Assembly: GCF_932294415.1 (NCBI RefSeq)
Contig: NC_065541.1
Location: 51,314,290 to 51,378,289 of the forward strand
DNA from: Quercus robur
Taxonomy: Eukaryota; Streptophyta; Magnoliopsida; Fagales; Fagaceae
DNA length: 64,000 bases
Direction: 5' to 3'
Under the pieces are notes generated by a model that saw only the letters and a list, made by a program, of their open reading frames with translations, had not been told where the DNA came from and searched no databases. The translations under genes were made by a program, and so were the position numbers. Below are positions 544-62,291 of the stretch, one piece after another; position 1 is the stretch's first letter, and each line of letters starts with the position of its first letter.

Positions 544-1455
544 TGTTGGGTTAAGATAACTTGACCCCGGTTAATTAATTCAATTACCCAAGTTAATTAA
601 TTAGGTTCAATTGCATGCAAATCGTGGAGGCACCAACAAATCACCAAAAATACTAAATGCAACGAAAAATAAATTTGACATGGTAATTTGTTGACAAATA
701 GAGAAAACCTTGTAAGGCAAAAATCTCATTGGGTGATTTTAACGTCACCACTCCCAAGAGTCCACTAATAAATAATTAAACGATTACAAGTATAAGAAAT
801 CTTACCAACTGCCCTAACCTATCCTGAAATACCAACCTACAGTTGAACCTTCGCTCCAATACCCAATTGAATTTGATCTTGTAGTAGCCTTCTTTCTCTT
901 GATGCACAAACCTCTAATTTGTGACTAACTCCTTTGCATTGATCCCAGTACGTGACTCACTCTAGCAACTTGAATGGTTGTTGTTGGCTGCAAAATTCTT
1001 CATTTCATCAACAATAAAGATCAAGAAGCACTTAGTTACAAAACCCAATGACATACAAATGTAGTAGCTTCTTACAGAGAAATTAAGCACTTGGTCACTA
1101 TATCTGTATATGAAAGCTTTTAAAATAAACCTTATATATGTCTAGGGTAGTATGAAAAGAAACCCTACACATGCACATAAGCTTAGGACAAATTTCAAAT
1201 CTGGAAATTCTAAAATTGTAATTCTCGATAGATCGAGCTTATGTCAAGCTTCGAATTAAGTCTCAATAGCAACTATCTGTCGAGAATTAATGAGCAATTT
1301 TTCTTCACTTGTTTCTTAGATCAATCTTCATGTCTTTAATATTTGACTTGAACAAAATGTTTCTTGAAGTACTAAACTCATCTTAAATCTACCCAATTAC
1401 AAGTAAAGTGATTTTGTCAAATGATTAGTCAATTACAAAAAATATAACCCTAACA
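544..1455 (-). repeat. 3' LTR of family A copy 1
   Basis: It is 912 bp and aligns along its length with 6743-7457 except for about 200 bp (about 1034-1232) missing from the other copy. On the minus strand it starts TGTTAGGG and ends CCAACA. It carries a TATATAAG box on the minus strand near 1130-1138 and the family motif TCGATAGATCGA near 1225-1290. Confidence 0.92.
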
Positions 1456-1469
1456 ATCTCCCCCTTTAG
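1456..1469 (-). other. Polypurine tract of family A copy 1
   Basis: On the minus strand the purine run AAAGGGGGAGA lies directly before the TGTTAGGG start of the 3' LTR, the normal place for plus-strand priming. A similar run, on the plus strand TTCCCCTTTTGTCAC, recurs near 1933-1947. Confidence 0.8.
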
Positions 1470-3008: not shown

Positions 3009-3262
3009 AGCTCGATAGATCAAAGAGGTATCGAGAATTAATTCTCGATAGATTGAGAGGTATCGAGGAGGTGTTGACGGCAAAAAGGTCTTGATAGATT
3101 GAAAAGTTGTCGAGAAGCTATAGAGCTGACAGAAGGAAATTAGCTTGATAGATCGAGTTATCTGTCGAAAGGTGTTGAGAACAAACTCGGAAATCTCGAT
3201 AGAAGAGGCATGTGTCAAGCTGTTGTCAAGATGCTGTCAAGAAGGTATTGAGTAGCTATCAA
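3009..3262. repeat. Array of degenerate TCGATAGATCGAG motifs (family A copy 1)
   Basis: About five irregular units, each a 'CTCGATAGAT(C/T)GAG' half followed by a '(G/T)(C/T)TATCGAG' half, spaced about 30-60 bp apart, lie between gag and the second ORF. The same motif occurs in this family's LTRs (1225-1290, 7218-7290) and in the equivalent place of the sister element (25496-25775). The unit is close to palindromic. Function unknown. Confidence 0.75.
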
Positions 3263-6742: not shown

Positions 6743-7457
6743 TGTTGGGTTAAGATAGCTTGACCCTAGTTAATTAATTAGGTTCAATGTAATTGCATGC
6801 AAATCGTGGAGGCACCAACAAATCATCAAAAATACTAAATGAAGCGGAAAATAAATTTGACACGATGATTTCTTGGCAAATGGGGAAAACCTCACAAGGC
6901 AAAAACTCTCATTAAGTGATTTTAAGGTCATCACTACTAAGAATCCATTAATCAACAATCAAGTGGTTACAAGTATAAGGAATCTTACCAACTACCCTGG
7001 CCTATCCTGAAATACCAACCTACAATTGAACCTTCGCTCCAATATCCAATTGGACTTGATCTTGTAGTAGTCTTCTTTCCCTTGATGCATAAACTTTCAA
7101 TTTATGACTAACTACTTTGCTCGGATCCCAGTACGTGACTCACTCTAGCAACTTGAATGGTTGTTGTTGGCTGCAAAATTCTTCACTTCATCAACAATGA
7201 AGATCAAGAAGCACTTGTGTCGAGCCATCTATCGAGTTTCGAATTAAGTCTCGATAGAAGCTATCTGTCAAGCTATCTGTCAAGAATTGATGAACAGCTT
7301 TTCTTCACTTGTTTTCTTGGATCAATTTTCATGTCTTTAATACTTGACTTGAATATCATGTTTCTTGAAGTATTAAACCCATTTTAGATCTACCTAATTA
7401 CAAGTAAAGTGCATTTTGTTAAAGAATTAGCCAATTACATAAAATATAACCCTAACA
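6743..7457 (-). repeat. 5' LTR of family A copy 1, promoter deleted
   Basis: It is 715 bp and collinear with 544-1455. A deletion of about 200 bp, joined after GCACTT at about 7216, removes the part that holds the TATATAAG box in the other LTR. It keeps TG...CA ends and the CTATCGAG/CTCGATAG motifs (7218-7290). Bases 7458-7462 (AAAAT) are the right target duplication. Confidence 0.92.
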
Positions 7458-7580
7458 AAAATATTGTAATAAATTTATGACTATAACAATACTCTTAAAA
7501 GAATTAATGCTTATTGTTAAGGGTGAAAAGTATAATTTTATAAAAACAAAATTACTAAAATTAGTACCCATATATATAAT

Positions 7581-8625: not shown

Positions 8626-9738
8626 TGAAAGTTCAAATAATGTATAAAACACCCTTAAACGATTAGACCCCCAATAACAAAATTACCAATTCAAGCTTTA
8701 TGGCAAACAATAAGTGTACGGAAAATGAACACATGCTATAAACAGAATTAGTAAACAATCTAAGCCAATTAAAATCACATCCATAGCAGAAAATAAAAGG
8801 CAAAGATTAAGGGAAGAGAGATGCAAATACAAGGACAACACAACGATGTGTTATTGAAGAGGAAACCGAAACTCTCGGCGTAAAACCTCTCCGCCGCCCT
8901 GCAAGTGGTAAGTAATCCACTAGAAAATGTAGTTAAGATACATGAACAGCAATAGACCCTCCAAGCCTAATCTACCCAGTGTACCTAAGCCCTCCAAGCT
9001 TCTTGCTCCAACAAGGTTGCGCCAAACCTATTTCTTTTCTAACTTCCCGGATTCTGCTACTTGACCATAGCATCAACCAATGTGAAATTGGTTCCTTCCT
9101 AACTGCTTCCCAAAACACCAAACAGCCCTCTCACATAAATGGATATGGTGAGAAAAGGTTTTGGTAAAAAGCCTCTCAAGAATTTAACAATGGAGAGGAA
9201 GAGAGTTGAGGAATTTGAAGAGTCTCTTATGTGAAGATTGTGGATGAATCAATCTTGTTTTTCTCTAGGGTTTCTCTCTCAAAATTCTCTTTGCAAGCTC
9301 TCTTTATTTCGTGCGTATAAGGGGTATTTATACTAGGATGAGAATGGAATATGAAGAGTCAAGTTTTTTTTTTTAAAAAAAAACAGGACTGGCTCGCGGC
9401 TTGGCCTCGCGGCTTGACTAAGTCGCGAGTTCCAGCCGTGAGATAACCAAACGGCCAGTTGTCCTATTTTGTCCTGTAGTGCTCCAGTTAGCATGACGCT
9501 TCAACTTCTGGCATGCCTGGCACGTGTACAGCTTCTGGCGGGTTGCAGCCGCGAGTCACCCGCGAGATCCAGTCATGAGTCCCTGTTTTTCTTGCACACT
9601 CTTGAGCATTTCTTCACACTATCTCACTCACTACCCTTACAAGAATCCCACCTAAATACAGGGTTACTAATTGCTAAAATACAAGCAAATTTGACACGGA
9701 TAAAGACAACAAGATGGTTGATTAAATTCAACCTTACA
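8626..9738 (-). repeat. 3' LTR of family B copy 1
   Basis: On the minus strand it starts TGTAAGGTTGAATT and ends GAACTTTCA. It has a TATAAATA box on the minus strand near 9328-9336 and a cluster of CTCGCGG / GTCGCGAG motifs at 9390-9575. It is collinear with 15773-16869 and, in reverse, with 61178-62289. Confidence 0.93.
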
Positions 9739-9753
9739 ATCTCCCCCTTTGGC
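9739..9753 (-). other. Polypurine tract of family B copy 1
   Basis: Minus strand CCAAAGGGGGAGAT lies immediately before the TGTAAGG start of the 3' LTR. Further short purine runs occur at about 10518-10530 and 10572-10584. Confidence 0.8.
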
Positions 9754-10603: not shown

Positions 10604-11651
10604 TCACTGCTCATAATATGTGGTGATACTGTCAAATTTTGCTGTGAGAACATTAAGCTGGTCTTGCATGGCTGCTATCCTCTCAGACTGCTCGGTCTGG
10701 ACCTCTCTGAGTCCCTCAAGTCTTTCCAGGATGACCTAAAATGCATCTGGAGGTATATATGAAGAAGTTGATGCTCTAGTTCTCTTGCCTCTCCTTCTGA
10801 GTGTTGAAGTTGATGCCTAACCTGCTGCCTCTGCCTCAGTCTCCATTAGGACACCCACTTCTTCATCACCTTCATCTTCTTCCCCTGGAAGACGTACACT
10901 TATCCTCTTGAAAGTTTGCTTGTTAATTGCTGAAGGTGTAGACATGGGACTGATATCTCGAGGGATTGCAACACCCTTCTTGCTGAAAATCCTCATAAGT
11001 AGACTAGGGAAGATCAGCTTAGGCCTAGAAGTGGTTCTAATCTCATCCACAATAGTATCAAATATGTGGGAGCTGATATCAATGAATGTCTTTTCCTTGA
11101 ACTCCATCAGAAAAATTGTTCTAGCATTGTTAATTGTAGTCAACTTCTTTATAGGATACAGGTTAAATATCATGATAATAGTGACACACCTCATGTCCAC
11201 TGGAAAGGCTATGGTATTTAGGTATTTCCCCTCTCTTTGTCCACCAATCATCTGCTGTATAGTTTCTATAGAAAGCATCTTATCCTTATAGTTGATGAAA
11301 TCATAATCTTCTAACCCCTCAAGACCTAGTACATCATCAATGTCATGTGCATCTAAGGTGAATACTGTTCCTCTAACCCAACAGCTCAACTCATCTTCCC
11401 TTATCATAGCATTGAAGTAAAACTCCCTAATCAAGGGTTCACACACAGCTGGTAAATCACTTAACAGCTTTTCTCATCCTCTCCCCTCAAAACAATTTGG
11501 GATAAAGGTGTCTCTCAAATCTTCCAAATCCACATACCTTTCTTGTATGATGCCTGCCCTTAAGAAAAAATTATTGTATCTCTCAAAATGTGAAACAGAC
11601 CTAAACAGCTTTCTTAACAGGTGTTTTCTTCTTTGGGGATGAAGGAGCCAT
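10604..11651 (-). pseudogene. Second ORF of family B, plant 'Transposase_32'-type domain protein
   Basis: The start ATG at 11651 gives a basic N-terminus (MAPSSPKKKTPVKK). A frameshift follows before the segment FERYNNFFLRAGIIQERYVD, then one in-frame TGA at 11474-11476 (after NCFEGRG), then the long part 11446-10817 with CEPLIREFYFNAM and the VRG motif (CWVRGTVF). This EFY...N...VRG pattern is that of the 'putative plant transposon protein' domain (Pfam Transposase_32), whose biochemical role is unknown. Two further in-frame TAG codons precede a C-terminal helix (VILERLEGLREVQTEQSERI) likely to form a coiled coil, ending in TGA at 10604-10606. It lies between gag and 3' LTR, where family A has its own version. 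Apart from the breaks it looks like a once-complete protein of about 350 residues. Confidence 0.75.
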
Positions 11652-12460: not shown

Positions 12461-12725
12461 ACGCGTTTTTTACGACTGAAGTAAGTCGCCAGAAAGTCGC
12501 CAATTTCACCCGCCAAACACTACAAGCCAAAAGTTTTGAAAAAATTTGCTAAGTGTTTTTCGCGACTGGAAGTCTCACTCACAAGGGAGTCGCAAGCTGA
12601 GCCGCGAAAATCTCTGTGTACCCCTCGTGACTGGACCTTTCCACTCGCGAACAAGTCGCCAAAACTAACCCACAAGCTCATGATTGTGGCATGCAACTTG
12701 TCTATCCCGCGACTAAGTCACCAAA
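12461..12725. repeat. Array of TCGCGA-type motifs (family B copy 1)
   Basis: Irregular copies of GTCGC(C/G)A, TCGCGACTGGA and CTCGCGAA occur about every 20-40 bp between the gag part and the second ORF. The same motif cluster is in this family's LTRs (9390-9575, 16532-16715, 61336-61530). This parallels the TCGATAGATCGA array of family A. Function unknown. Confidence 0.7.
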
Positions 12726-13861: not shown

Positions 13862-15703
13862 TCATTTCATCACGTCCATCATTCCGGGATCACTACTTTG
13901 ATCTCTTGATGGTTCACCAGCCCAATTTCTCCTGTCATTTCTAGGTCCTCGTGACCTTGGAGCAGTTGCACTATTCATTGCTCTCAGTTTTTGACAATTT
14001 GGTCGAGTATGCCCTTGAAGTCCGCAGTGATGACACACATAGTTCGATCTAGAACCTCTTTGTGGTCGTGGACGAGACTTGGCTCGGGATTTAGACCTGC
14101 CCACAGATTGATTACGGGGGTTGTTCAACATCTGTTGGTTCTCCACATTCCTCTTCTCCTCCATCTTGGGCTTCTCAACAGTAGGGCCAACTTCAAATAA
14201 CTCTTTGGCCTTTATAAACTTCACTTCTTTGGTGATATTGCCAGATGAGCTACTCCCTCCGATATATCCCAACTCAGATTTTTCTGAAAAATGCTTTTAA
14301 GATGAAATAACATCATCTAACTTCTTGGTGGAGACCCTCTCTATCTGGGCATTTACTTGCACAGCCTCTTGCCCAAGAAATCTCACTTTTATGTAGGCTT
14401 CTGACAGCTCACCATTCAGTGTCTCTATCTCACATTTGGCCTCCTTATAGCGAATTAGGAGACTTTTATAGTCCTCCTCTACCTTCTTCATCTTTCTCAC
14501 AACTACCTTAGCCATCCTTGTGTACTCACCCGACTTCTCCAGGAGTAAGTTATAATTCTCTTGAAGATTGGTTGTGCTTTCATCTTCTTCTGCATCTGAT
14601 TCTTCAACAACTCCCAATGATTCTTCATCACTATGTTCTCCAAGCTCTTGTACAAGCAAATTCAACTCATCTGAAGACTCAACATGGGCAATAGTCATAA
14701 AAGTAGAGTAATTCCCTTCTTCGTCACAGCTTTCCTCAGAATCAGAGTTGGATGAATCCGAGTCACTCAGTGTCGTGGCATACACCTTGTCTTTCGATTT
14801 CAAATAATTCGGACATTCTTTCTTAAAGTGTCCATGCCCGTTGCATTCAAAACAAGTGACACCTTGTGTAGATTGGAATTCTTTTCCATCTTTCTTTTTG
14901 AATTCCCTTTTCTCCCTTCCTGAATTTTGGAATTTCCCTTTATCACCAAATTTGCCATTATTCTTAAATTTCAAGAATTTTTGGAAATTTTTCACAAGGT
15001 ATGCAACATCTTTGTCAACCACATCCTCATCTGATGAGTCATGGACTTCCGACCTTTCATTAATGGTCTTAAGAGCAAGAGATTTGCTCTTCCGTTGAGT
15101 GGGCAGTGACATTTCATATGTCTGAAGGAAACCAATCAGCTCTTGGACTTTGATGTCATCAAGGTCCTTGCTCTCTTCAATCACTGTCACTTTGGCACGA
15201 AAGCTTTCTGGAAATGACCGAATGATCTTCCTTACTATTTTAAAATCCTCCGTTTTCTTCCCCAAATTAAACTTGTTGACAACCATCTCATTCAGCTTGC
15301 TATAGAAAGAGTCAAAGAACTCATCCTCACTCATTTTTAGCTCCTCAAATCGAGTGGTCAGCATCTATAGCTTGGTGTCTTTCACTTTCTTCGTGCCTTT
15401 GTAGGTGGTCTCCAATATCTCCCATGCTTTTTTGGCAACGGTAATGTGAGAAATCCTGTGAAACTCATCTGGAGACACACCACAGAAAATCGCGTTAAGT
15501 GCTTTACTGTTAGCATTAGATGCGGCGAGTGCTGCCTTATCCCATGTGGATTTGGCTGCCTCAGGCCTGGTTCAACCTATATTAACAGCATCTCAAACTG
15601 ATTCATCAATGGAACATAAAAAAACTCTCATGCGAACCTTCCAAAATGCATAATTACTATTATCAAAATATGGAGGTGCATTTAGGGATTGAGACCGGTC
15701 CAT
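13862..15703 (-). pseudogene. Copia-type gag of family B, one frame with four stops
   Basis: From ATG 15703 one reading frame of 613 codons runs to 13862. It has the copia-type gag fold (motifs such as YAFWKVRMRVF, LNAIFCGVSPDEF and DEFFDSFYSKLNEM), a CCHC knuckle CFECNGHGHFKKEC, an acidic Ser/Asp stretch, a coiled-coil part and a second knuckle CHHCGLQGHTRPNC. In-frame stops are two TGA in the N-terminal third (tryptophan positions SV*DAV and IG*TRP), TAG before MLTTRFEEL (15365-15367) and TAA after DVISS (14297-14299). All four are one transition from a sense codon and I saw no frameshift. There is no protease downstream. Confidence 0.9.
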
Positions 15704-15772: not shown

Positions 15773-16869
15773 TGAAAATTCAAATAGTGTATAAAACACC
15801 CTTGAACGATTAGACCCCCAATAACAAAATTACCAATTCAAGCTTTATGACAAACAATAAGTGTGCGGAAAATGAACACAAGCTATAAATAGAATTAGTA
15901 AATAATCTAAGCCAATTAAAATCACATCCACAGCAGAAAATAAAAGGCAAAGATTAAGGGAAGAGAGATGCAAACATAAGAACAACACAATGATGTGTTA
16001 TCGAAGAGGAAACCGAAGCCTTCGGCGTAAAACCTCTCCGCCGCCCTCCAAGCGATAAGTAATCCACTAGAAAAAGTAGTTGGGATACATGAACAGCAAT
16101 AGACCCTCCAAGCCTAATCTACCCAGTGTACCTAAGCCCTCCAAGCTTCTTGCTTCAACGAGGTTGCACCGAACCTATTTCTTTTCTAGTTTCCCGAATT
16201 TCGCTACTTAACCATAGCATCAACCAATGTAAAATTGGTTCCTTCCTAACTGCTTCCCAAAACACCAAACAGCCCTCTCACAGAAATGGATATGGTGAGA
16301 AAATGTTTTGGTAAAAAGCCTCTCAAGGATTTAACAATAGAGAGGAAGAGAGTTGAAGAATTTGAAGAGTCTCTTATATAAAGATTGTGGATGAATCAAT
16401 CTTGTTTTTCTCTAGGGTTTCTCTCTCAAAATTCTCTCTGAAATCTCTCTTTCTTTCGTGGGTATAAGGGGTATTTATACTAGGGTGAGAATGGAATGTG
16501 AAGAGTCAGGTTTTTTTTTTTCAAAACAGGGCTGGCTCGTGGCTTGACTGAGTCGCGAGTTCCAACCGCGAGATAACCAAACGGCCAATTGTCCTATTTT
16601 GTCCTATAGTACTCCAGCTAGAATGACGCTTCAACTTCTGCCATGCCTGGCACGTGTGCAGTTTCTGGCAGGTTGTAGCCGCGAGTCACCCACGAGATTC
16701 AGTCACGAGTCCCTGTTTTTCTTGCACACTCTTGAGCATTTCTTCACACTATCTCACTCACTATCCTTACAAGAATCCCACCTAAATACAGGGTTACTAA
16801 TGGCTAAAATACAAGCAAATTTGGCACGGAATTAAGCCAACAAGATGGTTGATTAAATTCAACCTTACA
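15773..16869 (-). repeat. 5' LTR of family B copy 1
   Basis: Collinear with 8626-9738. TG...CA ends; the TCGCGA motif cluster is at 16532-16715 and a TATAAATA box at 16472-16479. Confidence 0.93.
16472..16479 (-). promoter_or_regulatory. TATA box in the 5' LTR of family B copy 1
   Basis: Minus-strand TATAAATA within GTATAAATACCCC, at the same place as the TATAAATAC box at 61574 of the plus-strand copy. It would drive the genomic RNA toward gag at 15703. Confidence 0.6.
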
Positions 16870-17828
16870 ATATATATTTTTATACCCTTAGCATCGGTAC
16901 TAAAAAGAAATTCTATTTGTGTGTTGTGCTCATGGTTCACTTTCCCCTACAAACATAACCAAAAAAAAAAAACTCTCTCTCAAGCAAAACTTATACTTTG
17001 ATAAACCCTAAAGTGGTATTACTTGGAAACCGGTAGTAGTAGTACTGTAGTATAGGTTTTATCAAAAACCAAAAAGAATAGCTATAGGTGGTCTATCATA
17101 CTCTCCTTTCTCTTTAAATAAAAATTTACCTTCTGAATTTACTTGTTGCTTTATATACACACACCAATTGTTAACAAAAAGTTGAGATTTGTGGAAGAAA
17201 AAAAAAAAGAACATCAAAGAAATGTATAACTAAGTATTATTAACTAAATTTATAATTAAAATATATTTAATTTCATTAAAATTTTCAATCATATTTTTCT
17301 AGTATTTGGTTGCTTCAACCAAGAGATAGTATTCCATTTAATTGTATTGTGTTCTTTTATTCAATGCATTGAGTAATCTAATAAATCTATCTTTATTTAC
17401 GTAGGTTGAGACTACTAAATAATTTTAAGGTTAAGTAAAGTTGCATGGTACATTTTATAAATTAGTTGCTATTACTATACACATGAAGTATTATAATTCT
17501 ATAGATAGAATTTCTTTTAATTAGTAATTTTGCATCTAACAAAACAAGACTAATAGATTTTAAGTAAACAAAATATTTTTTAATTGATATTTAACTATAT
17601 AAAATGTCTCAATTTAATTATTTCCTTAGGCCCTTAGTTCCCAAAATACATTAAGTCGGCCCTAGATTTGGGCCGCAACTACCTCACTTTTCAAGTCATA
17701 TTTGTTGGAAGAAAATAAGAAAGGCAAAAGCTAAAATAAGAAATAGTCATTGTTAGTTATAGGATAAAGTGCCAAGAGTCACATGCTCATAAAAAATGAA
17801 CATGATTGCCATGTTTCCTATTCATACA
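16870..17828. other. AT-rich intergenic stretch
   Basis: No gene seen. Near 17651-17682 the sequence around GTCGGCCCTAG resembles a hAT-type end but no partner was found. Bases 16870-16874 are the right target duplication of the preceding element. Confidence 0.4.
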
Positions 17829-22029: not shown

Positions 22030-22233
22030 GGTCATTCTCGTTGAGTTGAGCTCTCGAGGCTAGGGAAGGTGTTAGGCATTCAAGACCACCCGGTTTGTGG
22101 GCTGGCCTCCATTATGTTTACTAAGCCATATTTAAATAAAGAAGTTATAAAAAGAGCCCTAATTTTTAACCTAAACATACATCATGTACTTAAATGAAAT
22201 AACACACACATGTCAAAGATCACATCACAATAT
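22030..22233 (-). repeat. Gypsy-type LTR fragment, left part of an interrupted copy
   Basis: On the minus strand it contains GCCTAACACCTTCCC and a CCGGGTGGTCTT stretch, typical of LTRs of large Tat/Ogre-type elements. It ends at the AATAT duplication of the element inserted at 22234 and is inferred to continue at 28684. Confidence 0.45.
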
Positions 22234-23241
22234 TGATAGGCCAAGAATGTATTGACCCCTTGTGATAAATTAACCACTTAATTAGTCAAGTGAATTAATT
22301 AAGTTAATTAGCATACAATACGCGTAGTAGCACAAACAAATCATCAACTAAGTTAATATGCAGATGAAAATAAAGTTGACATGGTAATCTATTTTTGAAT
22401 GGGGAAAACCTACATGGCAAAAATTCCACCGGGTAATTTTAAGGTCACCACTCCCAAAAATCCACTATTATCATAACAAGCGGTTACAAGTAAAAAATCG
22501 CAGTATCTTATACCAACCTATAGTTGAACATTTACCCCAATACCCAATTGCACTTGTTTTGTAGTGACAATCTCTACTTTTTAATGCACGACTCTCAGTA
22601 CGTGACTAACCAATCGATGCACGGATCCCAGTACGCAGCTTACACACCAACTTAAGAAAGATGTTGGCTACAAAGTTCTTTAGTTCATCACATGATAAAG
22701 ATCACGAAACTCCTAGGTTACAAAACCCTACAGTGTACAAACACAGTAACCTCTTGAAGAAAAAGATGAACTAGGGCATATGTCTCTAGTTCACAACATG
22801 CTTGTGAAAAACCTTTGCATCAAGTTGCACTCACTTGCATCATCTGTGACGGCTCTTAAAATAATTCTTATATATGTTTAGGGTTGTGAGAAAAGAAAGT
22901 CTAAACATGTATACACGGATTGGTGTGAAATCAGAATTGAAAATCTGACTTTTTTAAATCTCGATAGATACCCTATCTATTGAGCAGCTGTCAAGCATCG
23001 GGCTTAAACAGCCTTATAAACCTCGATAGATACTAGCTGTCGAGTTTTAAAATCCAGCACTTCTTCACTTGATTCTTGGACAGACTAGCATGGCTTTAAC
23101 ACTTGAATTTGAAACCTTGTTCCTTGAAGTATTAAATACATCCTAGATCTATCTAATTACAAGTAAAGTGTGTTTTGTTAAAGGATTAGCCAATTATATT
23201 AATAACATATATTCCTAACATGATTCACATATGTCCTAACA
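22234..23241 (-). repeat. 3' LTR of family A copy 2
   Basis: 1008 bp, TGATAGGCC...CCTAACA on the plus strand. TATATAAG box on the minus strand near 22866-22873. CTCGATAGAT / TGTCGAG motifs at 22955-23055. Collinear with 27709-28683. Confidence 0.92.
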
Positions 23242-23256
23242 ATCTCCCCCTTTGGC
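23242..23256 (-). other. Polypurine tract of family A copy 2
   Basis: Minus-strand CCAAAGGGGGAGAT abuts the 3' LTR. Further C5-type runs on the plus strand occur at about 23687, 23717 and 23757, before the end of the second ORF. Confidence 0.8.
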
Positions 23257-23793: not shown

Positions 23794-24965
23794 TCAAGCA
23801 GTCATCTCATCATCACTGGAAGAGCTAGCACCATTGTCCTCATCAACATCATTACTACCAGAGCCATTATCATTCTCATCCTCTGAAGCCAGTGGAGATG
23901 GAGAAGAAGAAGCAGTAAAACCACCCATGACAGCCTGTCGTCGTGTGATACGACCAACACGGGTGCTAACCTGACACAACTCATCACTTAGAGTGTCAAG
24001 GCGAGCATCCATGCACATAAGTTGTGCCATGATGGCCTCGAAAGTCACTCCACTCACAAAAGAAGGAACAGAGGTGGATGGAGCGGAAGAAGCTAAAGGA
24101 GTCACCGTCTCAATCCATGGCCGCCTCAGTTAAAGCTAGGTCTCACTCCGTCTAACAGTAGCAGCGTCTATAACACACATAACCGTAAAATAAGGAGACT
24201 CGGGATAGGAGACAGAAAAATGGTGAAGAAGCCTCGTGATAGCTGAAGGAAAAATGAGCTTATCACAAGTCGTCGTATCCTTATAGACATCTATAAGGGA
24301 AAGGATGAAGTGAGAGGGAAAATCTATGGTAAGCCTCTCAAGAAAGGACAACAAAAATTGAGCACGAGGCTCTGTGATAGAGTTATAGTGAGACAAAGGA
24401 TGAAGAACAAATGTCATCACCATGTTAAGAAACCTCGGACCTTTTGCAAAGTCCGAGCAAAGGGTGTTTTGACGGTCACCCCAAGAAGAAGGTGTCTCAT
24501 AGAAAAAAAAAGAGCCGAGAGTTCGTCTTTGGACACAGTCCTCATACGATCGCAGCCAAGGTAGTTAGGATGCGCTACCCTAGGAACATGTAGCACCTCG
24601 GATAAAACATTCGGAGTGACTACGATGCGCATACCTTGAATGCGAGTGATAAAATAAGGTACTGGATAGTCGAATCTGTGCATGTTGGAGTAGAACTCCT
24701 GTATGATCACGAAAGGACAAGTGATCAGGATGCCACACAGTGATTCCTAACCCTTACTGTAGATGACAGTGGGAAAGTTAGTATCGAAAAAGTCCGATAG
24801 AATGACTTGGCGTTCCGAATGAATGTCGCATCGTGAAAAGTTCTCCGAGAAGTCCGACTTGGCCTTCTCATCATGGAATCTAACATGGGAGGGGGTAGAA
24901 TCAGAGGAAGATTCCCCAGAACGAAGAGAGTTCTGGGACAAAGCAGATTTACGCTTAGGTGCCAT
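23794..24965 (-). pseudogene. Second ORF of family A, plant 'Transposase_32'-type domain protein
   Basis: ATG 24965 begins a basic, Ser-rich N-terminus (MAPKRKSALSQNSLRSGE). A TAG at 24747-24749 interrupts the frame just before the domain, which shows EFYSNMHRFDYPVPYFITRI, the RIQG motif, LHVPRVAHPNYLGC and SKDEL. A homopolymer at 24503-24511 shifts the frame; the correct frame resumes at MVMTFVLHPLSHYN and carries FPSHFILSLIDVYKDT and LIFPSAITRLL. A TAG (24136-24138) and a TAA precede the C-terminal part with a helix (MAQLMCMDARLDTLSDEL) and an acidic Ser/Asp tail ending at 23794. The EFY...N...RG pattern fits Pfam Transposase_32, known only from plant mobile elements and without a proven activity. 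It is the most complete family A version; the copy at 1966-2462 lacks the middle. Confidence 0.78.
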
Positions 24966-25495
24966 GGAGCAAGCTAACACATAGAAAGAGAGAGAGACAA
25001 ATAAAAAAGCACCAACACAGATCAATATAAGAATATAAAGAAATGAAGGTTCGTATGCATGAAAAATGCATGAGCATGTGATATTCAATAGTAAAAACAT
25101 TATGGGCTCAGCCCAATCCAATCCTACCAGCACACATGAATTCAACATATATAGTACACATCTATAATGCATGAAAATAAAGTTAAAATGCAAATGTAAT
25201 GCAATGCATGAACATTTAGGATCATTTGAACAAAACCCATCCCAAAAATTTTGCAAAAACTTCTTTAATTTTGAAAAACCCCAAAAGTTAGGTCACAAAA
25301 GATGAAATGCATGATAAATAAATGAATAAGAGACATATTAGAGGAAGAAAATGCTATTGAGACCAAAGAACACTTAGGGAAGAGGTTTGGAGTGAGAGAG
25401 AAGAGTTTGGGAAGGTGAGAAGACAGAAAGGATCAAAAGAGATCGAGAAAAATGAAGTAGAAATTGCGCTGACTCTTTATATAGAAATCCATAAT

Positions 25496-25775
25496 TCTCG
25501 ATAGATCGAGAGGTATCGAAAGGTGTCAAGATATAAAGTTCGACAAATACATCTATCGAGAAGCTATCCAAATGTGTCCACAACAAAAGGGGCTCGATGG
25601 ATCGAGAAGCTATCGAGCATACAGAAACTTCCTCGATGGATCGAGAAGCTATCGAGACAAATTCTCAAAAAGCTCGATGGATCGAAAATACGATAGCAGC
25701 TATCGAGAAAAGAAGCTGAAGAACTCGGTAGATAGCCTAGCTATCGAGAGGTGTCCAACAACTGTCGAGATTGTT
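25496..25775. repeat. Array of CTCGATGGATCGAGAAGC motifs (family A copy 2)
   Basis: Six units of the form CTCGAT(A/G)GATCGAG followed by AAGCTATCGAG occur within 280 bp. Three consecutive units (about 25590-25690) are nearly identical. The halves are mutually inverted, so each unit can fold on itself. It occupies the same place as 3009-3262 in the sister element and shares the motif with this family's LTRs. Confidence 0.82.
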
Positions 25776-27706: not shown

Positions 27707-27708
27707 CT

Positions 27709-28683
27709 TGATAGGCCAAGATTGTATTGACCCCTTGTGATAAATTAACCAATTAATTAGCCAAGTGAATTAATTAACATGCAATACGCGTGGTAGCACA
27801 AGCAAATCACCAACTAAGTTAATATACAGTGGAAAATAAAGTTGACATGGTGATTTGTTTTCAAATGGAGAAAACCTATACGGCAAAAACCCAACCGGGT
27901 GATTTTAAGATCACCATTCCCGAGAATCTACTATTATAACAACAAGCGGTTACAAGTAAAGGAATCACAGTACCTTATAGCAACCTACAGTTGAACTTGT
28001 TCTATAATGACAATCTCTCCTTTTTAACGCATAGTTCCTAGTAATGACTAACCAATCGATGCACAGATCTCAGTACGTGGCTTACATACCAACTTGAGAA
28101 AGATGTTGGCTACGAAGTTCTTCAGTTCATCACACCGATGAAGATCACGAAGTTCCTTGGTTACAAAACCCTACGGTGTACAAACACAGCAGCTTCTTGA
28201 AGAAAAAGATGAACTAGGGCATATGTCTCTGGATCACAATATGCTTGTAAAAAACATTTGCATCAAGTTGCACTCACTTGCATCATCTATGACGTCCCTT
28301 AAAATAATCCTTATATATGTTTAGGGTTGTGAGAAAAAAAATCATGAACATGTATACATAGATTGGTGTGAAATCAGAACTAAAAATTTGACTTTTTAAA
28401 ATCTCGATAGATACCCTATATATCGAGCAGCTGTCAAGTATCAGGGTTAAACAGTCTTTTAAACCTCAATAGATACTAGCTGTTGAGCTTTAAAATCTAG
28501 CACTTCTTCACTTAATTCTTGAACAAACTTGCATGGCTTTAACACTTGAACTTGGAATCTTGTTCCTTGAAGTATTAAACACATCCTAGATCTACCCAAT
28601 TACAAGTAAAGTGCATTTTATCAAAGGATTAGTCAATTCTATAATGACATATGTTCCTAACATGATTCACATATGTCCTAATA
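27709..28683 (-). repeat. 5' LTR of family A copy 2
   Basis: 975 bp, collinear with 22234-23241. TATATAAGG on the minus strand near 28308-28316. CTCGATAGAT motif cluster at 28400-28500. Right terminal CA changed to TA. Confidence 0.91.
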
Positions 28684-29682
28684 AATATAAAAGGAAACAC
28701 AATCAAACAAATATATTAAAAAATGAAAGGATAACAAATAAACAAACACAAAATGAAAAATATCACAAACAACCCAAACATGGCAAAAAGACTCAAACAA
28801 ACATGGAAAATAATTAAACACAATTGACTAACCTAAACAAAGTCAAACAAAATCAAAGAACATATGAAAAATGATTAAAACAATAAAAATAATATTTTTG
28901 TCAAATTTAAGTTCGAAGTGCGTATGCATACTCAACTATGCATACGCATGATCGAAACAATGCGCACGCATACTCAATGATACATACGCATCCTTTAGCA
29001 CAGAAACGATAAATCACATTGTTATAGATTTAATAAAACAAAGATATAGCATGTGAAATCAAATAAGTGTGTTAGAAACCCTAAACACTAAACTAACATG
29101 AAGTAAATAAAACAAACACCAATAGAAGCAAATAAACATGAAACAAAATCAAATAAGTATACTAAACTAACATAAAATTAATAAACATGTTAAACTTTAC
29201 ATAAAACCAAAATAATAAAACAAAAACAACAAAAACAGATTATAATCAGCCCAAAATCATATTAACACATATCAAAAGAATTAAGATCAACAAACAAATC
29301 AAATAAAACAAATATAAAACTATGTTAAGAAACTCATGTAAATCCTATTAAACAAAGAAAGAATTCATGGGAAGAACACTCACCTTGCTTAAGATTATGA
29401 GTTTGCGATTATTTAACCAGCTCCTAAGTGCCTACAACACACAAATTAGATTGAGGGAATAAGAATAATTGAAAAACGCAACAATAGTTAGTAATTACAA
29501 CTCAAGAACATAAGGTTTTAAGAAATCCAATTAGGAACAAGTTTCTGCCTTAGTTTTGTGTTAGAAAAAGGTTTTGAATTTCTATTGTGAACTCTTTAAT
29601 TACCCTTGATTGACATATGTCAAGATCATCATTGGGGCCGGGGACCAAAATTTAATAACATGTACAAAATGAGGTGTCTACA
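28684..29682 (-). repeat. Gypsy-type LTR fragment, right part of an interrupted copy
   Basis: On the minus strand it begins TGTAGACACCTCATTTTG, the typical start of Tat/Ogre-type Gypsy LTRs, at 29682. It is A-rich and non-coding and runs to the insertion point at 28684. At 28920-28947 it has a perfect inverted repeat (GCGTATGCAT / ATGCATACGC, 8-base loop). With 22030-22233 it would form one LTR of at least 1.2 kb. Confidence 0.55.
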
Positions 29683-30046
29683 TTACACAAAATTAATTCC
29701 CTTACTTGTCATCATTCCATTTAGAAATATGCTAGAGATTCAAACTATTATAAACTTTTCTGTTCTACACAACAAGATGATAATGTCATTGCATCCCTCA
29801 ACATACAACAAAGAAACAAAGTTTGAAATAATGAAGAAAAAACAAACTGACAATGTCTTCTTCTTTTTTTCTTGTTATTTTTTTATTTTTTATTTTTTTT
29901 GAAAAGATTGACACAAACAATTAGATTTGTAAAACCGAACTTAAAAGAAAGAAACGATAAAGATTCCAATGCTATTGCAGCCATTTTTGAATGATAGGAC
30001 GAATAGAATGGTTGGGGAAGAATATTTACAGTGTGCAAACTTAGAA
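29683..30046. other. 3' flank of the kinase gene
   Basis: No gene. It should contain the 3' UTR of the minus-strand kinase. From about 30018 the sequence matches the flank of the second kinase copy (from about 52014). Confidence 0.5.
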
Positions 30047-32630
30047 TCATTCTGCGTGAAGTGTCATGCCTACTAGTCCAGCCGTCTCTTCAAAGCCTTG
30101 TACTACCAACATTGGTTCAAGTAAACTCTTGACATGATCTGACCCAAGGACTGGCCGATTCTTTCGGTACTTGTCACAACACTTCAAGGCCAATTGAGCA
30201 ATGTTTTGAGCAATCTCAATTGGCCAGTCTCCAGCCAAAGGATCCAAGCGGGATGACAAATTTTCAGTATCTATGACAACTTGCATTTCCATTGCTATCG
30301 TGAGGTCTGGTCTCTGCCCAGTCAACAATTGTAGTAATATGAGTCCAAACGAGTAAACATCTGACTTCCTAGTAAGCTTTCCTGAAACAAGGAACTCAGG
30401 ATCCATGTAAGGAACAGTGCCCATTGGTTGAGTAAGATGACATAGTGTTGTGTCGTTGCCTGAACTTCTTTCATGGCATAATATACGGCATATTCCAAAG
30501 TCACTAAGTTTACTCACAAAGTTTGCATCGAGAAGGATATTAGAGGGTTTCAAATCACCATGTACTATGCTGTGAGGTTTTCTAGAATGAAGATAAACGA
30601 GGACAGAGCACAACTCTATTGCGATGCGTATTCGAGTCTGCCATGGTAATGGAGGACTTTTGTTCTTGCAGTTGAGCCAATCTTCAAGGCTTCCATTGGG
30701 GAGATACTCGTAGATAAGCGTAAAAGTTTCCAAACAACATCCAATAAGTCTGACTAGATTGGGATGCCTCAGCTGACTCAACGCACGAACCTGATATACA
30801 ACCAACTAATCAGAAAGAAAGCCAAAGTAGTCACCTTATGCGTATTATACAAGCACAAGCCATGAATTTAGACGTGCAAATTAAAGTGCACGATCCAACA
30901 AGTACCGTGGTACTATCATACAATAAATAACCACGTAAGGTTGTAATTGGATGATAAGAGATTTTGTAATATCCGAGCACCACTATTCAACTTTGTCACA
31001 TTCTATAGGCTACAATCTACAGATAATTTTGTAACGTAATTATATATACCAACATAGTATAATACAGCATGACAGAATCTAGTTACAGATAAAATGCTTC
31101 AGTGAATTGTACTTAAAATAAAAAATAAAAATAAAAAGTATATATATATAAACCCTAATGATCTAGTATATATGCAGAGAAAAATTACATGCAAGCATGC
31201 CAGATACAGTAGTTAAAGCCTTAAAAGGGGGATAAGTCTACACTCTCAATAATTTAAAGGGCAACTATTATACAGGTAATAGTTTAAGGGAGTAAATATG
31301 TATTTTCATAGTTTAGAAGGGTAAATATAAAAAATTATAATTTAGAGAGTAAAGTGTAATTTTCCCACAAAATTGACATATTCTTTCATTTAAGATATCA
31401 ATTAAGATCATAATATAGTAAACAGCTTCACAAAAGCACCAAACTAGAAAACCATACCAATCTTGCCCTAATATTGACATCATATATAGCCAAAAGCCAA
31501 ATAAATCTTTAACTACATAAATTATTCGACTGATTCTCAAATGAACACACAAATTAACCTCCATTTCGAATTGTAAGGGGCCTTGGTTGCCATTAGATTG
31601 TAGCGTCTTTATAGCAACTTGGGCTTGACCCAGGAGACCTTTATAAACGTTCCCATATCCTCCTCGTCCAATTATAAGGGATTCATCAAAGCCTTGAGTA
31701 GCTTCTTCAATCTCGGAGAGAAAGAACTTAGGCACTTGTCTAGAGGCCTCTACTTGTTTTCTTCTAAGCCCTTCAGCTTCTTGCAATGCATTGTCACGCT
31801 CAATCTGCAACTCATCTCTCTTTTTTTCTAACTCTTCATTTTGGCTCTTTAATAATATATTTTCTTTATTGGCAATCCGAAGTTCTTCCATCATTTGGTC
31901 TTTCAGATTCTTCAACTTTTCAAGTTCTTCTCTCTCTTTCACTAGTGCTTCCTCAACTTCTTTCCTTTGTTTCACCTCTTCTTGGAACTGTTGATTGGGT
32001 TATCAAAACTTTGAGTAAGAATTTGAACCTTTTATCGTTTACAGTGGTATAATTTTCAAGCATATAGTTCATATGATAGTATAAGGTGTGCTACGTGTTG
32101 AGTATTCTACTCAGTACCAAGAAGAAATTTGTGATGCATCGTTTTAAAAATATTTAATAATAACTTATTTTATGTACCATGTATCCTACTTATTATGCAC
32201 AATAATATTTATCAACTTCAAATATATTATATGTCATTAGAGAAAGAGAATAATCAACAATATGAACCACTGGATTGAGTGAATAACAAATATTTATTTA
32301 TTTTTTTAATTTAAGTGCACTATTATCTTTTAAATTCCTCTTTAAAAGAATATATTTTAATTGCATGTAATCAAAATTGATTTCATCTTTTGTTGTATTT
32401 AGTTTGTCAAAACAACTAAATTTGAGCAAGAATATCATATTCCAAATTAATTATTTCTTATATAAATCTTATAAAAATATTTTAAATAATGTAATAAAAT
32501 TTTTAAGATTTATATAATTAAAATTGTGAACCTTAGATTACTAAGAATAAAGTTCCTTCTTTTATGGATATAGATATTAGTTGTAATCCATGTACTGCAC
32601 GGGAATTAAAGTTTAACATAATTAATATGA
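30018..32630. repeat. Segmental duplication, copy 1 (kinase 3' part)
   Basis: This block aligns with 52014-54852: 3' flank, last exon, intron 7, exon 7 and about 640 bp of intron 6. The match in copy 2 stops exactly at the Gypsy LTR boundary (54854). Confidence 0.85.
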
Positions 32631-42667: not shown

Positions 42668-43608
42668 TGATGGGGCAAAAATGTATTGACCCCTTACAAA
42701 TTAATTAATTATCCAAGTTAATTAATTAGATTCAATTACATGCAATGGTGTGGTAGCACAAACAAATCACCTACTAAACTAAATGCAGTGGAAATTAAAT
42801 TTGGCATGGTGATTTGTTTATGAATGGGGAAAACCACCAAAACAAAAACCCCACCGGGTGATTTTAAGGTCACTACTCCCAAAAATCTACTATTATCAAT
42901 CACAAGTGGTTACAAGTATAAAGAAACTTACCAAACCGTTTGGCCTATCCCAACATAATAACCTACAGTTAAACTCTTACCCCAATACCCAATTAGACTT
43001 GTATTATAACTGTAATCTTTCCGTTCAATGCACGAATCCCAATACGTGATTAACTAATGATGCACGGATTTCAGTACGTGACTAACTCCAGCAATTTGAA
43101 GAGGTTGTTGGCTGCAAAGTTTTTCAGTTCATCAACAATGAAGATTAGAAAACCCCTTGGTCACAAAACCCTTGGTGTAAAGGTACTGTAACTTCATCAG
43201 AGAGGACAAGGCACTAGGTCACTTTTTGCATGCTCGACGGCCTTTAAAATAACTCTTATATATGTCTAAGATTGTGAAAAAAGAAACCCTATACAAAATT
43301 TCAACATGGGCCGAAAATTAGATCTGGAAGTTCTGATCTCGTAAGTCTGATAGAAACAGCTTGTGTCAAGCTTTTGTTGAGTTTCGACTTTAAATTTCGA
43401 TAGAAGTCTTTCTGTTGAGATTGCTGTCAAGTTTTAATTTAATGAACAGCTTTTTTTCACTTGTTTCTTTGTCAAATTTTCATGGCTTTAATACTTGACT
43501 TGAACAACATGTTTCTTGAACTCTTAAACCCATCTTAGATCTACCCAATTACAAGTAAAGTATATTTTGTCAAAGGATTAACCAATTACATAAAATATGT
43601 CCCTAATA
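42668..43608 (-). mobile_element. Solo LTR of family A
   Basis: 941 bp beginning TGATGGGGC and ending CCCTAATA, collinear with the LTRs at 22234 and 544 (shared GTGATTTTAAGGTCACTACT and AATTACAAGTAAAGT stretches). Flanked by GAGAG (42663-42667 and 43609-43613). The terminal CA is TA, as at 28683. No internal sequence. Orientation follows the other family A LTRs. Confidence 0.88.
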
Positions 43609-45156: not shown

Positions 45157-46419
45157 CTACGACTCGCCTTGCAATTGCCATAAATGTTTAATAAGGTCCG
45201 ACTGGAGTTGAAAATTGATTTCTCGGTCTCTAATGCGTCCATGCCTCTCAATGTATGACAAAAATTCATCACTTTGTTCACGTAACATTTGCAGAGGAGG
45301 ATTATCCACTCCATCATTTTGTTCATAATCCAAATCTACCACTTCATTATCATCCCGCTCATCTTCTCGCTCATCTTCAACAATCATATTATGGAGAATT
45401 ATGCACGCTTTCATGATCTTTTTGAGTGTTTCAAGATGAAAAAATCGTGCAGGTCCACGGACAATTGCGAAACGTGCTTGAAGCACTCCAAATGCACGCT
45501 CAACATCCTTCCTATACCCCTCTTGGGCTGCTGCAAATAATTTATACTTATGTCCTTGTGGAGCTGGGATTGTTTTCACAAATGTTGCCCACTTTGGATA
45601 TATACCATCAGCAAGGCAATATCCCATAGTGTAGTCATGACCATTAATTGAGTATTGTATTGTAGGAGCACGTCCTTCAGCCAATTCATTAAATACATGA
45701 GATCGCTCTAACACATTAATATCATTATTTGACCTAGGTAATCCAAAAAATGCATGCCATATCCAAAGATCATATGATGCTACTGCCTTCAAAATAATAG
45801 TAGGCTCACGAATATGACCACAATATTGACCTTTCCATGCAGATGGACAATTTTTCCACTTCCAATGCATGCAATCAATTGAACCTAACATACCTGGAAA
45901 ACCTCGACGTTCGCCGTGAGCTAACAGTCTAGCAATGTCTTCATTGTTTGGCTTTCTCAAGTATTCTTCAGAGAAAACATCAATTACTGCAGTAACAAAT
46001 TTTTTCAAACTTTCTAATGCAGTAGTTTCTCCAATCCGCACATATTCATCTATCAAATCACCCGATACTCCATACGCAAGCATTCTAAGTGCAGCAGTTA
46101 TCTTTTGCAATGAAGATAAACCAAGTTTGTTAGCACTATTTCTTTTTTGGACAAAATAAGAGTCATGAGCTTCAACTTGAGATTGAATACGAAGAAAAAG
46201 AGAACGCTTCATTCGAAATCTCCTACGAAATAAAGTAGGTGGATATACTGGTGTGGGAGCAAAATAATCAAGAAAAAGCCTCTCATGGCCTACCAAATGA
46301 TTACGTTTGATAGAACGACGACGACGCTTAGGTTGTGATGCTTCCATAACAAGTTCTTCGATTATCTCATCTTCATCTGAGTCATCAAGAAGGAACTTGT
46401 GAATCACAAAGTGATTCAT
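45157..46419 (-). CDS. PIF/Harbinger DDE transposase
   Basis: 420 residues from ATG 46419, open to TAG at 45157. It cuts and pastes the element at its inverted repeats and inserts at TTA/TAA targets, acting in the nucleus with the ORF1 protein. The catalytic triad is visible: D182 (GSIDCMHW), D233 (RSNNDINVLERS) and E307 (YRKDVERAFGVLQARF). These are the signatures of the DDE_4 / plant transposon protein family. A basic cluster KRRRRSIKR (31-39) is a likely nuclear localisation signal, and LSSLQKITAALRMLAYG (101-117) fits the helix-turn-helix part. Length is normal for the family. I preferred ATG 46419 because upstream in-frame codons lack ATG; an AG dinucleotide just above suggests a possible 5' intron. 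The acidic tail (DEREDERDDNEVVDLD) is common. No broken residues seen. Confidence 0.93.
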   Translation of the reverse strand: MNHFVIHKFLLDDSDEDEIIEELVMEASQPKRRRRSIKRNHLVGHERLFLDYFAPTPVYPPTLFRRRFRMKRSLFLRIQSQVEAHDSYFVQKRNSANKLGLSSLQKITAALRMLAYGVSGDLIDEYVRIGETTALESLKKFVTAVIDVFSEEYLRKPNNEDIARLLAHGERRGFPGMLGSIDCMHWKWKNCPSAWKGQYCGHIREPTIILKAVASYDLWIWHAFFGLPRSNNDINVLERSHVFNELAEGRAPTIQYSINGHDYTMGYCLADGIYPKWATFVKTIPAPQGHKYKLFAAAQEGYRKDVERAFGVLQARFAIVRGPARFFHLETLKKIMKACIILHNMIVEDEREDERDDNEVVDLDYEQNDGVDNPPLQMLREQSDEFLSYIERHGRIRDREINFQLQSDLIKHLWQLQGES

Positions 46420-46915
46420 GGATGCAACCTTCAAGACAATTGAAAATCAATTATTACTATAGATGCAAGATTAAAATTAAGTGACAAACCACATTAAAAT
46501 AAATATAACTAATTCACGCACAAATCACAACACAAACACATACATCTAAAAATAAAAAACTTGAAAATACTATGGATGCTCATTGTTCATAGATTTATTC
46601 TAAGACCTGTCATCTCAAAACCAAGCATATGATACTAGGCACTCCATAGTGGCTGTAATACTCATAGTTGATCAAATAATAATTTCATTGAATTAAAGAA
46701 TCATATCAATGCCTATCACAAGATCAAATAGAACTTAACAAAAGATAAAAAAGATTGCACTTCAAAGTCTTTGCTAGATTGCACTTCAAGTCATAACACA
46801 AATACATACATATAGTTTAAGATAATTCATCAAGTGACATAAGCCACTACAAAATACATAAACCACTACAAAATACATAAAAGTCTAAACTACATCCAAA
46901 ATACAATTAAACTCA

Positions 46916-51454: not shown

Positions 51455-52013
51455 GTATGTAAAACTCAGTTTTTTTTCTGTTGGATATAGTCCTGCTTAA
51501 TTGGACAAGTTACATCCCCTATCCGATCCTCAGAAATAATGTGATCTCCCTAAATGTTTCAAGTATCAACTGAAACTTAAAGTCTAGCTTCTAGGATATA
51601 TTCTTTACTTCTCTTTACCTGCCCCTGCCCTGGAGAGGGCTAGAAAGGATTTCTTTTTTATTCGTAAGTTACATGCACACACTCAATGTTGAACCCATGA
51701 TCTCATCCTTCATCTTTCTTATAAAATAAGGAGTGTCATTTAAGCTAGAGCTCATTGGAAGAAATCTAGAAAGGATAGACTAACAATAGATTCATTTGAA
51801 ATCATCCGTTGACTGAAATGGAGGGTCAAGAAATCTCTTGATCATTTCCAAAAGGGAAGAAAGAAAGATTTTATAAGCACATGCATGAAGATGGTGTTCA
51901 AATCAATAACTCCTGTTATTGTTTTTGTAGAGCTTTAAATTGTCTGGTGCTTGGTTGTAGTGTTCCTAGTTTAAAACTAGAGTCTTCTTCCGTCATTGTG
52001 ATCAGGAATTTAG
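51455..52013. other. Spacer between PRD3-like fragment and second kinase copy
   Basis: No gene recognised. The 3' part is the downstream flank of the minus-strand kinase copy. Confidence 0.4.
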
Positions 52014-61177: not shown

Positions 61178-62289
61178 TGTAAGGTTGAATTTATTCAACC
61201 ATCTAATTGGCTTTATTCCGTGCCAAATTTGCTTGTAATTCAGCATTTAGTAACCCTGTATTTAGGTGGGATTGTTGTAAGGGTAGTGAGTGAGATAGTG
61301 TGAAGATTGCTCAAGAGTGTGCAAGAAAACAGAGTGTCGCGGCTGGGACTCGCGACTGGACTCGCGGCTTCAACCCGCCAGAAGATGCACACGTGCCAAG
61401 CATGCTGGAAGATGAACAGTCATGCTAGCTGGAGCACTACAGGACAAAACAGGACAACTGGCCATACGGTTAACTCGCGACTGGAACTCGCGACTTAGTC
61501 AAGCCGCGAGGTCAAGCCGCGAGCCACCCCTGTTTTGGAAAAACCTGACGTTTCGCATTCCACTCCTCTTCAGTATAAATACCCTTTTAACCCACGATTG
61601 AAAGAGAGCTTCCAGAGAGAATTTTGAGAGAGAAACCCTAAAGAAAAAACAAGATTGTTTCACACACAATCCCTACCTTAGAATCTCATCAAAATCCCCC
61701 ACTCTCTTCCTCTCCATGGTCAAAACCTTGAGAGGCATTATACCAAACCTGGTTCTCACTATTATCATCTCTGTGAGACAGTCGTTTGGAGTTCTGGGAA
61801 GCAGTTAGGAAGGAGCCAATCTTCATTGGTTGATGCTACGGTGTAGTAGCGGAATCCGGGAAGCTAGAAAAGAAAAAGGTTCGGCGCAACCTCGTTGGAG
61901 CAAGAAGCTTGGAGGGCTTAGGTGCACTGGGTAGATTAGGCTTGGAGGGTCTATTGCTGTCCTTGTATCCCAACTGTATTTTCTAGTGGATTGATTACCG
62001 CTTGGAGGGCGGCGGAGAGGTTTTTCGCCGAGGTCTTCGGTTTCCTCTTCGATAACACATCGGGTGTTATCTTTGTGTTTGCATCTTCCTTCCTCTCTAT
62101 CTCTGCCTTTACATTATCTGCTGTGGTTTAATTTTGTTATGGCTTAGATAGTTGTTTAACCAATTTCATATTATAGCATATGTTAAGTTTCCGCACACTA
62201 GTTGTTTGACATATTGCTTGTGTTGGTTAAGTTAATTTTTGGGGGTCTAAACGTTCAAAAGTGTATTGGTACACGTTTTTGAACTTTCA
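61178..62289 (+). repeat. 5' LTR of family B copy 2
   Basis: 1112 bp, TGTAAGGTTGAATT to GAACTTTCA. The TCGCGA/CCGCGAG motif cluster is at 61336-61530, upstream of the TATA box, so in U3. Confidence 0.93.
61574..61581 (+). promoter_or_regulatory. TATA box of family B copy 2
   Basis: TATAAATA in CAGTATAAATACCC, about 45 bases after the motif cluster. Same place as in the other family B LTRs. Confidence 0.7.
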
Positions 62290-62291
62290 AT

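Follow-up and report, generated by a model that had tools for sequence, protein, structure and literature searches.

Both families of LTR retrotransposon in the 64-kb oak window (the window being the whole stretch of DNA analysed here) carry family-specific motif arrays that are real, and the pattern is stronger than first noted and reaches beyond the window. Within one element, the same motif appears to stand upstream of two promoters, one in the LTR and one internal, the promoters being putative and placed from TATA boxes. Of the functions suggested by an earlier sequence-only reading of this DNA, sites for a DNA-binding protein are the best supported, owing to the promoter position of the arrays, their family specificity at both places and the conservation of their non-CpG letters, and we consider it probable that a protein binds them.

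Self-comparison of the window delimited four elements, A1, A2, B1 and B2, and a solo A LTR (Table 1); the minus strand carries A1, A2 and B1, and the plus strand B2, which extends past the window edge. Families A and B show the features of copia-type LTR retrotransposons, namely LTR pairs, a PBS-like TATCAGAG.. after the 5' LTR, which we take to be a tRNA match, a PPT-like GGGGGAGATTG before the 3' LTR (both found by eye) and a copia-type gag (PF14223), detected in A1, A2 and B1 by a profile scan of ten window ORFs. The second gene, ORF2 (PF20167, 'Putative plant transposon protein'), was found in B1 (52.8 bits, cut-off 45) and, as fragments below the cut-off (37.2 and 19.4 bits), in A2. The first ATG of B1 ORF2, at 11651, lies 3' of a CAG acceptor-like site, and an early stop is present. 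The internal arrays of A1, A2 and B1 are placed between gag and ORF2. No pol match was obtained among the ten scanned ORFs, which include the gag and ORF2 pieces of A and B. A long ORF at 62261-63388 with a weak zinc-knuckle match (17.3 bits, cut-off 20.8) is perhaps a gag-like part inside B2.

Table 1. Elements and motif arrays of the window, and arrays at further PF20167 loci of the genome (L numbers denote loci)
Feature	Position or locus	Strand	Remarks
A1 3' LTR	571..1456	-	sites 1224 and 1232; TATA 1138
A1 internal motif array	3009..3262	-	6 ATCGAG sites; TATATATAA at 2990
A1 5' LTR, diverged	6763..7458	-	sites 7231 and 7250; TATA not found
B1 3' LTR	8626..9740	-	U3 array 9390-9575; TATA 9332
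B1 ORF2, PF20167	10817..11651	-	open frame 10817-11473
B1 internal motif array	12461..12725	-	6 CGCGA and 6 AGTCGC, upstream of ORF2; no canonical TATA
B1 gag, PF14223 and zf-CCHC	14297..15364	-	
B1 5' LTR	15773..16871	-	U3 array 16532-16715; TATA 16479
A2 3' LTR	22233..23242	-	sites 22960 and 23022; TATA 22874
A2 ORF2, PF20167 pieces	23794..24965	-	ATG 24965 (MAPKRK...), split over several frames
Putative TATA box TATATAAAG of A2 internal (ORF2) promoter	25475..25483	-	
A2 internal motif array	25496..25775	-	12 ATCGAG half-sites, directly 5' of putative ORF2 promoter
A2 gag region, PF14223	26359..27640	-	broken frames; zinc knuckle under cut-off
A2 5' LTR	27708..28684	-	sites 28403 and 28422; TATA 28317
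Solo A-type LTR	42668..43606	-	single TATCGA left, at 43397
B2 5' LTR	61178..62289	+	U3 array 61336-61530 (10 CGCGA); TATA 61574
Family C array	L070, L075		TAACTCGATTT clusters upstream of ORF2
Family D array	L076		TAACTCG clusters upstream of ORF2
Family E1 array	L073		TTTCGACCGATCGAAA clusters upstream of ORF2
Family E2 array	L078		TTTCGATCAATCGAAA clusters upstream of ORF2
Family F1 array	L074		CTCGCG-type clusters upstream of ORF2
Family F2 array	L077		CTCGCG-type, B-like clusters upstream of ORF2
Family H array	L072		CTCGC, weak cluster upstream of ORF2

Site counts in the window bear out the clusters that had been placed in A and B from the letters. Inside six A clusters lie 26 of the 39 occurrences of ATCGAG/CTCGAT, and inside four B clusters 26 of the 28 of CGCGA/TCGCG; the five 280-bp segments with at least five ATCGA all overlap or adjoin the internal arrays of A1 and A2, and the nine with at least three TCGCG are on B clusters. 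By the same window count CGCGA is absent from the A clusters and ATCGAG from the B clusters, in agreement with the earlier statement that the families use equivalent positions and differing motifs. The 18-mer CTCGATGGATCGAGAAGCTATCGAG of family A occurs as two exact copies in the A2 internal array, at 25593 and 25632; the A1 internal sites have the form ATCTATCGAG, the exact 18-mer not being present there. The three B LTR clusters hold 6, 4 and 10 CGCGA (10 in B2). For the A LTR clusters the words 'arrays' and 'palindromic' were generous, since the sites are present but number only two ATCGAG in each. CpG density per 100 bp is 3.9-8.7 in the internal arrays and B LTRs and 2.0-6.1 in the A LTR clusters, compared with 1.63 for the window. 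Tandem Repeats Finder returned no row at the three internal clusters and one row in each of two LTR clusters (units of 12 bp at 7258-7284 and of 13 bp at 61498-61523); with irregular spacing and no such row, the A and B internal arrays are not minisatellites of head-to-tail units.

A search of the genome (785.7 Mb) gave 5084 first-look ORF2 candidates for B, 4606 for A and 6385 for the PF20167 profile, 150 of each being scored, and the copies examined were, for each family, the 30 that best match the window ORF2s, which are not a random draw. In the 30 A copies ATCGAG occurs 275 times (shuffle mean 35, maximum 45), and in the 30 B copies CGCGA occurs 373 times (mean 10, maximum 17; 20 shuffles each); the motif of the other family is not enriched (CGCGA in A, 27 against a mean of 32; ATCGAG in B, 4 against 16). 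Binned over the 30 copies of each family, site density peaks at two places, upstream of ORF2 and in the LTR. At least three internal sites are present in 26 of the 30 A copies and 24 of the 30 B copies (fewer in 4 and 6, respectively), and at least two LTR sites in 15 and 25. Loci retrieved by the A 18-mer alone carried an A ORF2 in all eight cases (the first 8 of 105 genome matches). Facing half-sites 8 bp apart are the commonest neighbours in the A internal arrays (24), with in-line half-sites at 11 bp (17) or 22 bp (11); the 8-bp facing pair is not among the spacings listed for A LTRs. Most B internal sites (89) are the TCGCGA palindrome.

The position of the arrays relative to TATA boxes is consistent with a role at promoters. 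In the window, clusters lie 5' of a TATA box in the LTR of B2, as the sequence-only reading had remarked, in both LTRs of B1 and of A2 and in the left LTR of A1, and the internal arrays of A1 and A2 end within about 20 bp 5' of one on the element strand; no TATA box was found in the right LTR of A1, and no canonical one at the B1 internal array. Among copies with at least two sites, 13 of 26 in A have a TATA box no more than 80 bp 3' of their last internal site, and none of the 26 has one on the 5' side, the background being 0.08. In the LTRs it follows the last site within 200 bp in 14 of 15 A copies (mode 91 bp) and within 120 bp in 18 of 25 B copies (mode 56 bp). TATA boxes are scarce at the internal B arrays (downstream in 1 of 24, and one upstream), and a splice-donor-like match lies 171-176 bp beyond the array in 12 of 24 B copies, compared with 1 of 26 in A.

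The LTR and internal motifs agree with each other by family. Six families (A, B and the further families E1, E2, F1 and F2) were compared by k-mer enrichment between whole U3 and 600-bp internal regions, U3 being taken from the copies with a clear PPT in A (13 of 30) and B (17 of 30) and from one locus for each of the others. The true LTR-internal pairing is alone among 720 in reaching its score at k = 5, 6 and 7; since the families are related, 1 in 720 should not be read as an independent probability. At 5- and 6-mers the LTRs of A, B, E1 and E2 each match their own internal array best (at 7-mers E1 goes to E2), and those of F1 and F2 are nearest not to their own but to the internal array of B, a relative with the same motif type. 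Between single copies the LTR of an A element is no better a match to its own array than to others (11 copies; 1569 of 2000 permutations as good) and that of a B element only weakly so (14 copies; 78 of 2000), and the matching is therefore at the level of the family.

We propose that the arrays may be clustered sites for a sequence-specific DNA-binding regulator, serving as upstream elements of two putative Pol II promoters, one in the LTR (U3) for genomic RNA and one internal for ORF2, with each family having its own motif, matched at the two places. The element itself would most likely encode the regulator, for which the PF20167 product of ORF2 is the foremost candidate. Acting on its own promoter and on the LTR promoter of family copies, it would form a positive loop leading to activation or freedom from silencing. 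Array position, family specificity, LTR-internal concordance and low dN/dS of ORF2 are matters of observation, and site conservation is so in part. As a whole, with regulator sites at both promoters, a positive loop and ORF2 as lead candidate, the proposal stands at about even chances. That the ORF2 product is the binder falls slightly short of an even chance, and that the effect is activation or anti-silencing is put forward tentatively.

All 16 aligned ORF2s match the PF20167 (Transposase_32) profile (best E 1.4e-26), and a Pfam scan of the 16 gave otherwise chance matches only. Pfam, NCBIfam and PDB profile searches found no DNA-binding domain in PF20167; one NCBIfam match (E 0.076, far under the cut-off) is taken as chance, as is one PDB match (E 0.28), the PDB profile search giving no solved relative. 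An AlphaFold single-sequence fold of ORF2 had a pLDDT of 31.9, which is no usable model. Several ORF2s have, by eye, a short basic start (MGPKRTKR, MAPSSPKKK) and a coiled-coil-like or acidic tail, which would suit a nuclear regulator and proves nothing. Median dN/dS of ORF2 is 0.23 in B (209 pairs from the 21 of 30 copies with open frames; range 0.04-0.88) and 0.35 in A (66 pairs from 12 of 30; range 0.19-0.70), calculated on open frames only, which favours low values, and with one B pair of dS ≤0.02 dropped.

Arrays are also found with other PF20167 genes. Ten further loci were hand-picked for variety out of the 150 scored, and eight of these have arrays, whose motifs come in several versions, most of them with a YTCG core (Table 1); two show none. 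At L071 no array was seen on reading of the locus, and a CTCAAA cluster at L069 was judged to be of a different kind from the A- and B-type arrays. A tree of ORF2 drawing on 22 of 40 open frames (minimum length 220 aa, no more than six per family; the tool flags long branches) separates B, F and H from A, E, C, D, I and G with support of 100/100, and where arrays exist this split coincides with that between CTCGC-type (B, F, H) and CGA-type (A, E, C, D) motifs. For family E, the LTR at a further locus (L083:438-2148) is of E type and shares 80.4% identity with the L073 LTR; it bears two units of the E2 kind as well as a TATA box, and a copia integrase follows it. This suggests that E has its own pol and is a pol-bearing relative with the layout of A and B, a 1.5-kb gap to L078 being unread. 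F1 and F2 have related ORF2s and flanks that align, with arrays between them that do not. At L077 the LTR and internal region of B (75-91% identical) surround an F-type ORF2, so that motif and ORF2 can be uncoupled; together with the F1/F2 alignments, this indicates that arrays and ORF2 are exchangeable and that arrays turn over fast.

The foremost alternative is that host transcription factors bind the arrays, which the element would use as promoter boxes, as the stress-responsive plant retrotransposons ONSEN and Tnt1 carry promoter boxes used by host factors. A place 5' of TATA boxes would fit any activator, binding by ORF2 is itself putative, and at L077 B-type arrays accompany another ORF2. 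However, the motifs differ among families of one genome, and they differ together in the LTR and internally, so that a new host factor would be needed for each family at both promoters; motif type also broadly tracks the ORF2 tree. We regard host factors as unlikely, though not negligible, binders.

Family C brings a second kind of candidate protein into view. Families C and D share a common motif unit, yet their arrays do not align, and no LTR pair was seen in a one-strand comparison between the three pieces of C and of D that were read (12.5 kb each). One C array lies before ORF2 and another of the same kind ends about 110 bp 5' of the ATG of a B3-domain gene, B3-1 (PF02362, E 1.7e-17); a second B3 fragment (25.2 bits, cut-off 30.1) is on the opposite side of ORF2. 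The B3-domain genes of C are at L080 (minus strand, ATG at about 3112) and L079:731-946, in a unit without visible LTRs. B3-1 is present at 95-100% identity in at least 36 places of the genome, and the second B3 type recurs a few kb away from places with C ORF2, on the opposite strand. In C, and perhaps ancestrally in all families, the arrays might then be bound by a different element protein, for instance one with a B3 domain, with ORF2 as a partner. The C array close to the B3-1 ATG and the B3 fragment past ORF2 speak for this; on the other side, no B3 match came from the ten scanned ORFs of the window, among them gag and ORF2 pieces of both families, yet A and B have arrays. We consider a B3 binder improbable.

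Conservation of the sites bears on whether the arrays have a function at all. In aligned copies with at least four sites (25 of 30 in each family, a choice that favours conservation), the non-CpG letters of sites have a higher pair identity than letters beside other CpGs, 0.901 against 0.803 in A and 0.879 against 0.830 in B; the pairs were formed without the reference copy, which defines the sites, and references are not independent of each other. When the sample is widened to the full 30 copies, including those that align poorly, the excess persists in A (0.802 against 0.732; 25 of 27 references) and weakens in B (0.776 against 0.758; 19 of 26). Greater conservation of motif copies than of their flanks, as looked for by the sequence-only reading, is thus seen in both samples for A, and for B in the 25 copies and less strongly in the 30. 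CpGs within sites are nearly as variable as other CpGs (A, 0.666 against 0.636; B, 0.750 against 0.734), and this decay suggests methylation; it fits the earlier idea of methylation targets, except that the CpGs are not the conserved letters.

The arrays could instead be functionless, with the internal array an ancient duplicate of U3, or U3 of the array, or else a drifting minisatellite. Array turnover, with F1 and F2 aligning only around the array, would be consistent with this, as would the repetition of the C upstream array at 154-bp spacing and the weaker conservation in B when all copies are used. Against it, blastn of internal region against LTR (E 0.01; best match per copy, regions cut at fixed offsets, some copies without a true LTR) gave no match in 38 of 60 copies; in 20 of the 22 with a match the best one was of motif length (14-39 bp), longer ones being confined to L044 (224 bp) and L035 (465 bp), so that an internal array duplicated from the LTR has little support. 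The irregular spacing and lack of tandem rows at the internal clusters of A and B in the window, and the conserved sites in aligned copies, also stand against it. The data show neither neutral drift nor a single minisatellite expansion, though B supports this less strongly, and we hold an absence of function to be quite improbable.

An RNA signal (dimer, packaging or structured leader) is the least probable reading, since the folding z-scores of -2.29 (A2) and -2.47 (B1) and the 8 of 70 predicted pairs with a sequence changed on both sides in an alignment of 14 B arrays are set against a covariation term of only -0.12 kcal/mol in that alignment, the fact that inverted repeats of any kind fold well, and LTR sites 5' of TATA, which lie outside the 5' end of the transcript, as the 5' end of retrotransposon genomic RNA excludes sequence 5' of the LTR TATA box. 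A search for known RNA families gave no Rfam match at gathering scores.

Returning to the two-promoter proposal, its closest known parallels are the VANC proteins of Arabidopsis VANDAL elements and the Tas protein of foamy viruses, as far as the accessible parts of the sources describe them. VANC proteins bind family-specific motifs in non-coding VANDAL DNA and reduce methylation (PMC5735166). As in the oak elements, a short motif is dense in the non-coding parts of one transposon family and rare in its relatives (PMC5735166, PMC12844716), target motifs differ from one related family to the next and are subject to turnover, and in VANDAL the element encodes the factor. The oak arrays share the family-specific motif dense in non-coding DNA. 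VANDALs, however, are Mu-like DNA transposons with the motif YAGTATTAY in one orientation and binding established by ChIP-seq and EMSA, whereas the oak arrays belong to LTR retrotransposons, occur in both orientations, have a CpG-bearing motif and are associated with a PF20167 protein whose binding is putative. Foamy virus Tas, an element-encoded protein, serves both the LTR and an internal promoter, and the oak elements likewise have the same sites at the LTR and internal promoter (promoters from TATA boxes, the internal one of B being without TATA); the effect of Tas has been shown whereas that in oak is inferred. For the oak arrays the likeliest interpretation is a two-promoter, family-specific regulatory system that would work like VANC or Tas, and we count it as a member of neither.

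Extra ORFs are common in plant LTR retrotransposons and are described as of unknown function (PMC11728184, in the part available). The same source, the one paper of our search that names PF20167 by accession, identifies it in a 3' additional ORF of sunflower Athila, which is similar in being a predicted nuclear protein of a plant LTR retrotransposon, and differs in belonging to a gypsy element and not one with copia-type gag; the available text gives no target motif for it (PMC11728184). The TRP28 proteins and the tandem repeats of Retand are also similar, in that an extra protein is a proposed DNA-binding regulator and family-specific repeats lie between pol and the 3' LTR, but the domain is PF04195, in antisense, and the repeats are, in the part available, not tied to two promoters (PMC11963269). 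A 2026 sunflower paper, in its accessible part, does not settle whether modulators of this kind are encoded by Tork and Athila elements (PMC12844716). Our literature search, with most subscription journals outside its scope, found none among the papers listed that links PF20167 to a target motif.

More broadly, PF20167 proteins may be sequence-specific regulators encoded by plant transposons and form a large class that has gone unrecognised, each with a private, often palindrome-like motif mostly on a YTCG core at the LTR and internal promoter (in C at two gene promoters, no LTR being seen), which would switch on or un-silence their own family, with protein and motif co-evolving within one genome in the manner of VANC and its targets, here in LTR retrotransposons; we advance this as a conjecture, somewhat more doubtful than not. 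It gives PF20167, with its 6385 first-look candidates (150 scored), a concrete hypothesis, that protein X binds motif Y, and about seven natural protein-motif pairs are available to compare against each other. If true, sequence-specific anti-silencing or self-activation would extend from Mu-like DNA transposons to LTR retrotransposons, and the proteins would make up a natural series that differs in DNA specificity.

Outside the A and B elements, the window contains two diverged kinase-like gene regions (30019-32621 and 52012-54851; kinase by eye), which are 75-86% identical in aligned pieces. A 425-aa minus-strand ORF at 45157-46434 resembles a Harbinger-type transposase, and a tandem array with a 69-bp unit in about seven copies lies at 58321-58811.
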